NCBI RefSeq assembly: GCF_012999535.1
Contig: NZ_JABBWV010000015.1
Location: forward strand, 62,001 to 126,000
Reading direction: 5' to 3'
Origin: Microbispora sp. H11081
Lineage (GTDB): Bacteria; Actinomycetota; Actinomycetes; Streptosporangiales; Streptosporangiaceae
DNA: 64,000 nucleotides
Position 1 is the first letter of the stretch; each line of letters begins with the position of its first letter. The notes beneath the pieces are model-generated. The model was not told the DNA's origin. It saw only the letters and a program-made list of their open reading frames with translations, and made no database searches. Positions 23,134 through 64,000 of this stretch are shown here, piece after piece. Position numbers and translations under genes: made by a program.

Positions 23134-23144
23134 CCCCACCCATA

Positions 23145-23172
23145 AAGCCCCCCTCATGAAGCCCCCCTCATG
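23145..23172 (+). repeat. 14-bp tandem duplication next to palindromic element copy 1
   Basis: AAGCCCCCCTCATG occurs twice in a row (23145-23158 and 23159-23172), directly before the outer arm of the large repeat. Confidence 0.9.
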
Positions 23173-23173
23173 C

Positions 23174-23411
23174 CGTGATCTTGCAGTTTGTCGCAGGCGT
23201 ACGCCTTGAGCTGGAGCGGAACCCTCCGTGATCATGCAGAAAAACTCTCTATCGGCCTCTCACCTCGGACGACATCCACCGTGATCATGCGATTGCATGA
23301 TCACGACATGCGAAAGACGAGGTCGGGGGGTCATCCGCGGAATTACTGCAAGATCACGACGAATAGGCGCCCAGGTGAGCGGCCATCCGTGCGACAAACT
23401 ACAAGATCACG
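23174..23411. repeat. Palindromic interspersed element, copy 1 (complete, 238 bp)
   Basis: Three nested pairs of arms. Outer arms 23174-23195 and 23390-23411 (core GTGATCTTGNAGTTTGTCGC, one mismatch). Middle arms CGTGATCATGCAG (23227-23239) and CTGCAAGATCACG (23346-23358). Central perfect hairpin CGTGATCATGC (23280-23290), loop GATT, complement 23295-23305. Gaps are symmetric: 31 and 40 bp on both sides. No ORF of its own. It lies between a dehydrogenase gene and the start of the GMC oxidoreductase gene. Confidence 0.92.
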
Positions 23412-23425
23412 GTGGTGGGGATGGG

Positions 23426-25129
23426 ATGGGTGGGGTTGTGGATTACGACGTTGTGGTGATCGGGTCGGGGTTCGGCGGGAGTGTGACCGCGCTGCGGCTC
23501 ACTGAGAAGGGTTACTCGGTCGGCGTCATCGAGGCCGGCCGGCGGTTCGACGAGAAGACCCTGCCCAAGACCTCGTGGCGGGCCAGGGACTTCCTGTGGG
23601 CTCCCGCGCTCGGCCTCAAGGGCATCCAGCGCATCCACGTCCTGCGCGGCGCCAACGGCGTGATGGTGCTGGCCGGGGCCGGCGTGGGCGGCGGCTCGCT
23701 CGTCTACGCCAACACGCTGTACGAGCCCCTCGCCCCGTTCTACGAGGACCCGCAGTGGCGCCACATCACCGACTGGAAGGCGGAGCTCGCCCCCTACTAC
23801 GACCAGGCCAAACGGATGCTCGGCGTGGTGGAGAACCCCACGGTGACCGCCGCCGACGAGGTGATGAGGAAGGTCGCGGAGCGGATGGGCGTCGGCCACA
23901 CCTTCCGCCTCGCACCGGTCGGGGTGTTCTTCGGCGAGCCGGGGGCCGAGGTCGACGACCCCTACTTCGGCGGGGTGGGGCCACGCCGACGCGGCTGTGT
24001 CGAGTGCGGCGAGTGTATGACCGGCTGCCGCCACGGCGCCAAGAACATGCTGATCAAGAACTACCTCTACCTGGCCGAGAAGGCCGGGGCCAGGGTCCAC
24101 CCGGAGACCACCGTGACCGGCGTACGGCCCGTCGAGGGCGGCTACGAGATCACGGTGAAGCGCACCGGGGTGTTCGGCTCCACCCGCACGCTGACCGCCG
24201 CCCAGGTGGTCTTCGCGGCCGGCACGTACGGCACCCAGCTCCTGCTCCACCGGCTGAGGGCGACGACGCTGCCCCGGATCTCGCCCCGGCTCGGCGCGCT
24301 GACGAGGACGAACTCCGAGGCGCTGCTCGGCTTCGAGCGCCTCGCCACGAAGGGCGTCAAGCTCAACCGCGGCGTGGCGATCACCTCCTCGATCCATCCG
24401 GACGCGGAGACGCACATCGAGCCGGTCAGGTACGGCGACGGCTCCAACGCCATGGGCCTGCTGCGCACGCTGCTCGTGGACGGCGGCGGCCGGGCTCCCC
24501 GGTGGCTGAAGTTCCTGGGCGCGGCGCTGCGGCGGCCACGCGTGCTGGCCCGGCTGGTCAACCACCGCGGGTGGTCGGAGCGCGCGGTCATCGCCCTGGT
24601 CATGCAGGCCAAGGACAACTCGATCACGCTGTCCATGAAGGGCGGCAGGCTGCGGGCGGGGCCGGGCCACGGCGAGCCGAACCCCACCTGGATCCCGGCC
24701 GGGCACGAGGCCGTACGCCTGGCGGCGGAGGAGGTCGGCGGCATGCCCGGCGGTTCCTGGCTCGACCTGTTCGACATCCCGGCTACGGCGCATTTCCTCG
24801 GCGGCTGCGCGATCGGCGACTCGCCCGAGACGGGTGTGATCGACCCCTACCACCGCGTTTACGGGTACGACGGCCTGCACGTCGTCGACGGCTCCGCCGT
24901 GTCGGCGAACCTCGGGGTGAACCCCTCCCTCACGATCACCGCCCAGGCCGAGCGCGCGATGGCGCTGTGGCCGAACAAGGGCGAGCGGGACCGCCGCCCC
25001 GCCCCCGGCTCGCCGTACGTGCGGCTCACCCCGGTCGCGCCCGTACGGCCAGTGGTCCCGGCGTCCGCGCCGGGGGCGCTGCGCCTGCCCATCGTGGAGA
25101 TCACCGGACCTCCGTCGCCCGACGGGTGA
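23426..25129 (+). CDS. choD: GMC oxidoreductase, ChoD (cholesterol oxidase)-like
   Basis: 567 aa from ATG 23426, 15 bp after a palindromic repeat; GTG 23438 is possible. FAD motif DVVVIGSGFGGSVTALRL, LAGAGVGGGSLVYANTL, a Cys cluster CVECGECMTGCRHGAKN, and the GMC active-site pair: His in AHFLGGC and Asn in NLGVNPSLTI. Matches the mycobacterial ChoD-type protein that sits near guaB3 and guaA; sterol oxidase activity of that type is doubtful, so the true substrate is open. guaA follows after 77 bp. Confidence 0.85.
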   Translation: MGGVVDYDVVVIGSGFGGSVTALRLTEKGYSVGVIEAGRRFDEKTLPKTSWRARDFLWAPALGLKGIQRIHVLRGANGVMVLAGAGVGGGSLVYANTLYEPLAPFYEDPQWRHITDWKAELAPYYDQAKRMLGVVENPTVTAADEVMRKVAERMGVGHTFRLAPVGVFFGEPGAEVDDPYFGGVGPRRRGCVECGECMTGCRHGAKNMLIKNYLYLAEKAGARVHPETTVTGVRPVEGGYEITVKRTGVFGSTRTLTAAQVVFAAGTYGTQLLLHRLRATTLPRISPRLGALTRTNSEALLGFERLATKGVKLNRGVAITSSIHPDAETHIEPVRYGDGSNAMGLLRTLLVDGGGRAPRWLKFLGAALRRPRVLARLVNHRGWSERAVIALVMQAKDNSITLSMKGGRLRAGPGHGEPNPTWIPAGHEAVRLAAEEVGGMPGGSWLDLFDIPATAHFLGGCAIGDSPETGVIDPYHRVYGYDGLHVVDGSAVSANLGVNPSLTITAQAERAMALWPNKGERDRRPAPGSPYVRLTPVAPVRPVVPASAPGALRLPIVEITGPPSPDG

Positions 25130-44358: not shown

Positions 44359-44595
44359 CGTGATCTTGGAGTTTGTCGCAGAAAACCCGCCTACCTGGGC
44401 CGATACCCTTCGTGATCATGCAGAAATCGGTGGATGTGCCAGCTGGCCTGCGCGTGTGCCTTTCGTGATCTTGCAATTGCAAGGTCATGAAAGGCGTCCG
44501 CGCAGATGGGAGGCCCTCGTCGGCAAAAAGTGCAAGATCACCAAGGGTATCGGCGCAGGCCAGGGCATATCTCTGCGACAAACTACAAGATCACA
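44359..44595. repeat. Palindromic interspersed element, copy 2 (complete, 237 bp)
   Basis: Outer arms 44359-44380 and 44574-44595; middle arms 44411-44423 and 44530-44542; central hairpin CGTGATCTTGC (44464-44474), loop AATT, GCAAGGTCATG (44479-44489), paired fully if two G-U pairs are allowed. Gaps 30, 40, 40, 31. Part of the outer gaps also pairs: CCGATACCCTT at 44400-44410 and its complement AAGGGTATCGG at 44544-44554. Runs of six C (44348-44353) and six G (44597-44602) flank it. The right arm contains the stop codon of the next gene. Confidence 0.92.
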
Positions 44596-61778: not shown

Positions 61779-62960
61779 GTGGACCTGTTCGAACATCAGG
61801 CGAAGGAGCTCTTCGCGGAGTACGGCATCCCGGTGCCGCGCGGTATCGTCGCGGAGACACCGGAGGAAGCGCGGGCGGCTGCCGAGCAGCTGACCGGACG
61901 CGTTGTCGTCAAGGCCCAGGTCAAGACCGGTGGGCGCGGCAAGGCCGGCGGTGTGAAGGTGGCCGACGACGCCGCCGACGCGTACGCGAAGGCGACGCAG
62001 ATCCTCGGCATGGACATCAAGGGCCACACGGTCCACAAGGTCCTGATCGAGGAGGCCAGCCAGATCGCGGAGGAGTACTACTTCTCCTTCCTCCTCGACC
62101 GCGCCAACCGCTCGTTCCTCGCCATCTGCTCGGCTTCGGGCGGCATGGACATCGAGGAGGTCGCGCACACGGCGCCGGAGAAGGTGGCCAAGGTGCCGGT
62201 CAGCTCGCTGACGGGCATCGACCGCGCCACGGCCCGCGAGATCGCGGTGGCCGGCGGCCTGCCGCAGCAGGCGCTGGACGGCGCCGCCGAGCTGATCGAG
62301 AAGCTCTGGGCCGTGTTCGTAGACGAAGACGCCACGCTCGTCGAGGTCAACCCGATGATCCTGTCGGCAGACGGCCAGGTGAAGGCGCTCGACGGCAAGG
62401 TCACCCTCGACGACAACGCGAACTTCCGCCAGGCGGAGCACACCGCGTACGTCGACAAGGCGGCGGAGGACCCGCTGGAGGCCCGGGCCAAGGAGAAGCA
62501 CCTCAACTACGTCAAGCTGGACGGCAACGTCGGCATCATCGGCAACGGCGCGGGGCTGGTCATGTCCACGCTCGACGTCGTGGCGTACGCGGGCGAGGAG
62601 TTCCCCGGCCAGCCCAAGCCGGCCAACTTCCTCGACATCGGCGGCGGCGCGTCGGCCGAGGTCATGGCGAACGGCCTGGAGATCATCCTGTCCGACCCGT
62701 CGGTGAAGTCGGTCTTCGTGAACGTCTTCGGCGGCATCACGGCCTGCGACGCCGTCGCGAACGGCATCGTCTCGGCCTTCGATCTCCTGCGGAGCCGTGG
62801 CGAGGAAGTGACCCACCCGCTGGTCGTCCGCCTGGACGGCAACAACGCCGCCCTCGGGCGGCAGATCCTGGCCGATGCCGCGTTGCCGCGGGTCGAGCTG
62901 GTCGACACCATGGACGAAGCGGCCAAGCGCGCCGCAGAGCTCGCAGCGGTAGGTGCGTAA
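61779..62960 (+). CDS. sucC: Succinyl-CoA synthetase beta subunit (ADP-forming)
   Basis: 393 aa from GTG 61779. ATP-grasp domain: [51 protein letters not shown]; the C-terminal part has [14 protein letters not shown] and [19 protein letters not shown]-cycle step succinyl-CoA to succinate with ADP or GDP phosphorylation. The stop overlaps the sucD start by one base (TAATG), fixing equal expression. Confidence 0.98.
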
Positions 62961-63832
62961 TGGCTATCTGGCTCACCGAGAACAGCAAGATCATCGTCCA
63001 GGGCATGACCGGCGGCGAGGGCACCAAGCACACCCGCCGCATGCTCGCCGCCGGCGTCAAGGTCGTGGGCGGCGTGAACGCCCGCAAGGCCGGCATCACG
63101 CACGAGGGCCTGCCGGTCTTCGGCACGGTCCAGGAGGCCATGGAGCAGACCGGCGCCGACGTGTCCGTCGTCTTCGTGCCCCCGGCCGCCACCAAGGCCG
63201 CCGTACGCGAGGCCATCGACGCGGAGATCCCGCTGTGCGTGGTCATCACCGAGGGCGTGCCGGTCCACGACACGACCGAGTTCTGGGCGTACGCCGTGTC
63301 CAAGGGCAACAAGACGCGCATCATCGGCCCGAACTGCCCCGGCATCGCGTCGCCCGGCGCGTCCAACGCGGGCATCATCCCGGCCGACATCACCACGAAG
63401 GGCCGTGTCGGCCTGGTGTCGAAGTCGGGCACGCTGACCTACCAGCTCATGTACGAGCTGCGCGACATCGGCTTCTCGACCTGTGTGGGCATCGGCGGCG
63501 ACCCCGTCATCGGCACCACGCACATCGACGCGCTCCAGGCGTTCCAGGAGGACCCGGAGACCGACGCGATCGTGATGATCGGCGAGATCGGCGGCGACGC
63601 CGAGGAGCGCGCCGCGGCCTACATCGACGAGCACGTGACCAAGCCGGTCGTCGCCTACGTGGCCGGGTTCACCGCGCCCGAGGGCAAGACGATGGGCCAC
63701 GCGGGCGCGATCGTGTCCGGCTCCGCCGGTACGGCCCAGGCCAAGAAGGAGGCGCTGGAGAAGGTCGGCGTCCGCGTTGGCCGTACCCCCAGCGAGACCG
63801 CCCGCCTCATGCGCGACCTCATGTCCGCGTGA
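62960..63832 (+). CDS. sucD: Succinyl-CoA synthetase alpha subunit
   Basis: 290 aa. CoA-binding Rossmann domain: [47 protein letters not shown]; phospho-His in [20 protein letters not shown]. Start is coupled to sucC. The stop TGA at 63830-63832 lies inside the outer arm of palindromic element copy 3, so the element begins within the last codons. Confidence 0.98.
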
Positions 63833-64000
63833 TCTTGTAGTTTGTCGCAGAGGGTGCTGTTGACCTGCGCCGTCACCCTTGGTGATCATGCAGTCAACAG
63901 GCGCCCGGCGCTCCTGCCAGCGGTTTCGTCATTCGTGACCTTGCACTTCCCGGTGAAGTGCAAGGTCACGATGCGTATAGGGCCAGCTCACGGGGGGTGC
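63828..64000. repeat. Palindromic interspersed element, copy 3 (cut by window edge)
   Basis: Outer arm 63828-63849, 31-bp gap, middle arm GGTGATCATGCAG (63881-63893), 40-bp gap, centre hairpin CGTGACCTTGCACTTC (63934-63949) with its perfect complement at 63955-63970. The gap sizes equal copy 1 exactly. The remaining half should continue about 65 bp past the edge. Confidence 0.88.

Follow-up and report, generated by a model that had tools for sequence, protein, structure and literature searches.

Dispersed intergenic repeats are often taken to be leftovers of mobile DNA. The element described here, from Microbispora sp. H11081, raises the question of whether that account suffices for a repeat whose short words keep mirrored distances while the bases between them vary. 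It was studied in a window of 64,000 nucleotides (positions 62001 to 126000 of contig C7 in G000, a 7.38-Mb draft genome of 50 contigs), where a preliminary description had noted two complete copies and one half copy, with words 31 and 40 bp apart on either side of a center. The boxes sit at the positions claimed for them: with up to one mismatch allowed, GTGATCNTGCA is matched 26 times in the window, compared with a mean of 2.74 after shuffling, and none of 100 shuffles reached 26. The spacing is likewise regular and mirrored, but the unequal distances resolve into a single 53-bp period, the inequality arising because words of unequal length (22 bp and 13 bp) had been used (31 + 22 = 40 + 13 = 53).

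Copy 1 is a complete element of three boxes facing three (23174 to 23411, outer box to outer box). Its left arm begins with the 22-bp outer box A (CGTGATCTTGCAGTTTGTCGCA, 23174 to 23195, plus strand) and continues with box B (23228 to 23238, plus strand); boxes C and C′ meet head to head in a 24-bp near-palindrome at the center (23281 to 23304), followed on the minus strand by box B′ (23347 to 23357) and the 22-bp right outer box A′ (23390 to 23411). The boxes start at 23175, 23228, and 23281 in one arm and at 23294, 23347, and 23400 in the other, 53 bp apart within each. Copy 2 (44359 to 44595), also complete with three boxes per arm, lies between converging genes, with boxes at 44360, 44412, and 44465 on the plus strand (spacings of 52 and 53 bp) and at 44478 (two mismatches), 44531, and 44584 on the minus strand (53 and 53 bp). 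The copy at 63828 had been taken for a half copy, yet it is a full element that occupies the window through position 64000 and runs past its end to approximately 64076. Boxes at 63829, 63882, and 63935 (plus strand) and 63959 (minus strand) fall inside the window, and the right arm lies at G000:C7:126012-126074 (64012 to 64074 in window numbering). The central hairpin of this copy (63934 to 63970) has a 17-bp stem in its own genome.

The preliminary description had made its reading depend on whether copies elsewhere in the genome keep their spacing, and they do. Of 263 spacings between neighboring boxes of the same direction, 256 measure 52 to 54 bp, the exceptions being 41, 51, 55, 63, 64, 106, and 107 bp; in other species, this holds for 234 of 249 spacings, a count in which some loci appear twice. 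Exact boxes number 255 genome-wide, compared with none for a control pattern read backwards, and the exact outer word TGATCTTGTAGTTTGTCGC occurs 86 times. From 71 stretches fetched around box matches and one later stretch containing the element, box chaining gave 121 arms, or 123 once the later locus was added. These arms occupy at least 69 loci, a lower bound drawn from 100 of 147 and 100 of 255 box places listed; L297 was reached only via matches of a search with the L107 neighborhood, not via the box list. Three boxes of the form GTGATCWTGCA point inward in 95 of the 123 arms; 23 arms have four boxes, 4 have five, and 1 has two, although a few long chains in these counts overrun the element center. 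Sorting by facing partner yields 51 full elements and 21 half arms, 15 of them solitary and 6 forming three inward pairs (L079, L107, and L297) with 0.86 to 2.5 kb between the half arms.

Across 93 three-box arms, the outer box follows the consensus CGTGATCTTGTAGTTTGTCGCA almost invariantly, in part because the same words served to find the loci. Inner boxes are immediately preceded by TTC, and another word, GACCTG, is conserved 20 bp upstream of them. The commonest form of the center is a 24-bp palindrome, with an offset of 13 in 29 of 48 paired elements. Spacers had been said to differ strongly between copies, and overall this is so (mean identity of 0.38 between arms of this genome), but there are exceptions such as L135 and L073, whose spacers are alike. 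Conserved geometry with free spacers most likely reflects protein phasing, as had been proposed, given the spacing above and the persistence of boxes over spacers in orthologs. Helical phasing may be the reason for the 53-bp pitch, although spacings other than 53 bp are too few for proof of this, and the signal of center offsets near 10.5 to 11 bp (P = 0.04 to 0.08) is too weak. Two contigs of the draft, L106 (C18:1-9000) and L123 (C43:1-2000), begin at an element and adjoin on the M. rosea locus L046; the palindrome seems to have interrupted assembly there.

Boxes at resident copies are kept better than their surroundings. In gapped alignments of orthologs (29 of 31 pairs usable, from 20 loci of this genome), identity was 95.2% in outer boxes and 94.3% in inner boxes, whereas spacers reached 76.6% and flanks 86.5%; boxes were not required in the relative, but relatives had been retrieved either with the outer-box word or through their similarity to copy 1, and this favors the outer box. 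Ungapped comparison of 52 arm pairs from 24 loci, with arms chosen by box matches, gave 97.0% for the core of outer box A, 91.6% for B, and 92.7% for C, against 64.6 to 72.3% for spacers; the contrast is smaller in the gapped alignments, yet it persists. Our own loci and most orthologs were found by box words, so that decayed copies were missed. Five pairs from two loci escape this bias, having been fetched by flanking genes alone, and in these, which took in only relatives having the element, identities were 95.2% (outer), 95.5% (inner), 79.1% (spacers), and 89.3% (flanks). From these alignments, and allowing for a partly ascertained sample, the boxes are probably under selection. Length differences of 53 bp between orthologs (L104 versus L016 and L109 versus L048) indicate gain or loss of one module. 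In some 70 copies the 53-bp pitch of the boxes has been maintained and the remaining sequence has drifted, so these copies are apparently of consequence to the cell.

The elements are biased toward gene 3′ ends. Among 70 rows of gene context, 26 were convergent, 35 tandem, 5 divergent, and 4 unclassified, compared with 31 convergent, 85 tandem, and 30 divergent in a 244-kb baseline (Fisher P = 0.003, convergent versus divergent), and gene ends are faced by 74 of 121 arms and gene starts by 34, a split unlikely under equal odds (P = 1.5e-4), the remaining 13 arms facing neither, with the reservation that the simple GC3-based gene caller used was wrong by eye at some loci (e.g., L095 and L129). 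The TGA of the outer box is itself the stop codon of a gene in 26 cases, and a TAG further in serves in 5. Half arms had an end-to-start ratio of 14:5, on inspection close to the 60:29 of arms in full elements, and strict polarity of half elements was rejected.

Outside the outer box, 30 bases average 59% C and 14% G (122 arms), compared with 38% and 35% after 115 control stops, and a strong C excess marks 74% of arm leaders versus 0% of control stops. Such leaders flank both arms, and they occur at 29 of 34 start-facing arms as against 15 of 19 end-facing arms whose stop is at least 20 nt away. Because start-facing arms are equally C-rich, the leader belongs to what surrounds the element, rather than being just a Rho site, and a rut site was rejected as the sole explanation. 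At copy 1, the left leader (23134 to 23173, plus strand) is C-rich, G-poor, and missing at the empty site of 14 relatives, and the right leader (23412 to 23438, minus strand) is G-rich as written, C-rich on the other strand, and directly precedes the start of the next gene. By eye, the left one contains a tandem duplication of approximately 14 bp, which suggests that leaders grow by slippage.

The reading that we favor, on which our confidence and our doubt are about level, is that these elements are phased sites for a DNA-binding protein that form a barrier at gene ends, with rare MITE-like spread and selected boxes. Each arm would usually present three helically phased sites, 53 bp being approximately five turns, to one sequence-specific protein, and in most elements two arms would be opposed across a short palindrome able to form a hairpin. 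With three or four phased boxes bound on one face of the helix, the two arrays would meet head to head. Such a nucleoprotein block, mostly at gene 3′ ends, would most likely serve as a two-way barrier (a transcription roadblock, terminator, or insulator) that keeps neighboring genes apart, probably because RNA polymerase arriving from either side is halted or slowed. The unit, bounded by its inverted 22-bp outer boxes, may have spread rarely in the manner of a MITE, with purifying selection on the boxes retaining the resident copies, which are missing in close relatives, presumably because the protein was lost. Full elements between tandem genes, and inward arms that bracket genes at L079, L107, and L297, count against a terminator role. 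A more specific form of this reading is possible, if tentative: a bacterial insulator-like system in which one protein binds mirrored, helically phased three-site arrays at gene ends, its sites once mobile, now selected in some Microbispora, and lost with the protein in sister species. No cognate binding protein or transposase was identified in this analysis. Transcript ending and the separation of neighboring genes are incompletely understood in actinobacteria, and the element offers a defined, testable site for this question.

The main rival, which we regard as rather doubtful, is a plain nonautonomous transposon (MITE), with boxes that bind a transposase and bring the host no benefit; a mobile past and a present function can both hold. 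The 22-bp inverted ends fit it, as does the paralogous pair L135 (C49) and L073 (C1), in which homology is bounded exactly by the outer boxes, sequence outside is unrelated, and spacer identities reach 0.85 and 0.78 (next-best pair, 0.72). L137 and L113 may be an older pair of this kind (0.72 and 0.63). Patchy presence among close relatives is also consistent with a MITE, and so is copy 1, a lineage-specific gain: in 14 of 14 relatives, it has no counterpart at the same junction, and 14 to 37 bases separate the aligned flanks. Its source was not found by similarity search, the best full-length match elsewhere being 72% identical. The neighbors of copy 2 adjoin only in G002, which is without the element; in other genomes they are separated by kilobases or were incompletely recovered, and none of 19 relative loci fetched for this copy contained a two-box chain. 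The contrast drawn earlier, selection and not recent copying alone, stands, but some copying has taken place. Orthologs that keep boxes (94 to 95%) above spacers (77%) and flanks (87%) are not expected of idle copies, even if ascertainment helps the boxes. Furthermore, L135/L073 is the one clear young-looking pair among 123 arms, and no target-site duplication was seen by eye at copy 1 (14 empty sites) or at L135/L073, although in these comparisons the flanks have been altered by C-rich leaders.

The inward pairs among the loci listed bear on the same question. They enclose an ABC-type ATPase, a deaminase with a glycerate kinase, and an AbiEi/MTES_1575 protein, this last named from a domain search and the others from their translations. 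No transposase was recognized among these open reading frames on reading them, the L107 protein alone being searched against a database; this may count against a plain MITE. The L107 protein (L107:2171-3142, contig C23 of G000) lies between inward arms and combines an AbiEi antitoxin C-terminal domain with a REase_MTES_1575 domain. Among the matches listed, DNA of its gene was found only in G000, G008, and G003, whereas the gene to its left was matched in all 15 genomes; as a trans-acting factor it was rejected, since element-rich G006 is without its DNA among those matches. At L079 (2100 to 4680), inward arms flank two genes of a purine-catabolism-like cluster (names read from translations). 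Fourteen of the 15 genus members have these genes, with or without arms, and G014 has the neighbors only; the arms therefore did not import them within the genus, and a mobile cassette was rejected here. A viral origin was likewise rejected: seven viral contigs contain eight stretches with two same-direction boxes 51 to 56 bp apart, and no mirrored pair is among them.

Within the genus, the element is common in four of the 15 members and scarce in a fifth. Exact boxes number 255 in G000, 106 in G008, 96 in G003, and 77 in G006, compared with 23 to 39 in each of the other 11 genomes. Among the matches listed, the variable box position is C or G, unlike in the element, in 19 of 26 boxes from G011 and in 20 of 28 from G007. 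A similarity search with copy 1 across 41 genomes, from genus to class, returned matches in six (G000, G003, G004, G006, G008, and G025), the one in G025, a member of another family, being marginal. Exact matches to the outer box came from three named Microbispora genomes and from six unrelated records; each of the six has a single match, taken as chance. A tree from five segments places G000 with G008 and G004, and G003 and G006 in a sister group with G010, G012, G007, and G013, inside which support is weak. This presence and absence in close species is a natural experiment: the protein would be expected in G000, G003, G006, and G008 and would be absent or broken in G010, G012, G007, and G013.

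Individual loci differ in which relatives retain the element. At the sucD-like locus (copy 3), arms are present in G000, G004, G006, and G003. After the sucD-like gene, a stem of at least 9 bp aligned with the element center is the longest stem in 14 of 15 species (in G014, the longest is a different one), and in most it carries a related GACC/GATC word. At this place G009 and G011 have TGCAAGATCAT, and G001 has CGCAAGATCAT. The left half of L079 occurs in G000, G003, G004 (box B damaged), G006, and G008, and the right half in G000, G003, and G006; a GTGATC word that resembles a box, located where the first gene there starts, is also found in G001, G009, and G011, which are without intact arms at that site. 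By eye, the traces in these three species at the two loci look like relics. At the L120 locus, the element occurs in G000, G006, and G003 only. Relatives without it (L284 to L293) share by eye a hairpin-like stretch around CGCCCGCCGGGACCAGGCGGG, in variants, before the next gene; L286 (G004) and L292 (G001) have 12-bp tandem repeats (GACCCGACCACT; GAGCCGGCCACT) directly after the end of the same gene, and the two outgroup species, at L294 (G002) and L295 (G005), share another stretch, richer in AT, that contains the words TGATCTT and GGACGATCTAC. A possible "dialect" in species that do not have the element was sought in 400 kb of G001, which showed no spaced word family, a weak test, since in the window with its three elements the true word came only among the first four ranks. 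Loss, interspecies exchange, and gain are not fully separable in this history.

Rigid spacing, mirrored arms, spread over many contigs, and location at gene ends would also suit a nucleoid or supercoiling site, at which the array organizes the chromosome instead of stopping transcription, as BIMEs are reported to be for gyrase or IHF; we judge this explanation unlikely. Least probable of all, and by a step more so, is an RNA-level terminator or 3′ untranslated region element in which a C-rich Rho site and a hairpin act together and the boxes work as RNA. Its attractions are the C-rich, G-poor 30-nt leader, the hairpin that follows the sucD-like gene in 14 of the 15 species, and centers that change at mirrored positions between L126 and L032 (by eye); L119 and L043 similarly have two distinct centers, each largely self-complementary (by eye). 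Pairing outward from the central boxes averages 4.57 bp, compared with 2.39 bp in shuffles, none of 2,000 of which reached it (51 elements). In contrast, mirrored spacers of 47 elements pair at chance in three of four segments (1,000 shuffles), and the innermost is weakly above (z = 2.2). The center is accordingly a hairpin and the whole arms are not, which speaks against an end-to-end RNA hairpin and leaves the structured RNA that had been suggested without support over the full length; a 9/9 spacer match in copy 2, the initial hint of pairing, is a single case among the 47. Moreover, RNA would have no need of a fixed 53-nt spacing, leaders occur at start-facing arms too, 15 half elements are solitary and have no facing arm, and Rfam returned no match in the window at gathering score.

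How, then, does the element that we read as a protein-bound barrier compare with known systems? The earlier remark that no described element with this plan is known agrees with our searches, which gave no named match in Rfam for the window, in the literature, or in phage and plasmid collections for copy 1 (nothing at an E value of 1e-5, a limit near the reach of one exact 31-nt spacer). No name for it was found in the literature covered, which takes in few subscription papers; the box word had its sole match in a Drosophila paper, and the word Microbispora is absent from the main text of two REP papers (PMC12306157 and PMC3733652). CRISPR arrays are direct repeats in one direction, whereas most loci here consist of two opposed arms, each with three or four boxes. 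Intrinsic and Rho-dependent terminators lie at gene ends and involve a hairpin or a C-rich leader, the intrinsic kind having a U tract after its G+C hairpin. The elements share the location, the hairpin center, and the leader, but they have box arms on both sides, and the leader is also found where no gene ends. MITEs are short and noncoding, with inverted ends that delimit the copies and with empty sites in relatives. Our elements are similarly short, have inverted ends, stop at their outer boxes (one clear pair, L135/L073), and have empty sites in relatives; they differ in boxes better conserved than their surroundings, and neither a target duplication (by eye) nor a partner transposase was found. 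Pneumococcal BOX elements, a subject of PMC3049150, are modular interspersed repeats in which an internal module occurs in variable number, and in this they are like the present elements. The difference is that the boxes forming the modules here are conserved while their spacers drift, with a fixed pitch and a mirror plan about a center. REP sequences and BIMEs, as described in the available part of PMC2817692, are dispersed, extragenic, high-copy, mirrored units for which protein binding and a link to transcription termination are reported; BIMEs are proposed there to be nonautonomous elements, and REPs are linked with RAYT transposases. The present elements are also dispersed, extragenic, high-copy, and mirrored. 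However, REP units are imperfect palindromes of 20 to 40 bp in alternating orientation, while boxes A and B here are directional and nonpalindromic at a 53-bp pitch, most arms run three boxes in one direction before the mirror follows in full elements, and the palindrome is confined to the C/C′ center.
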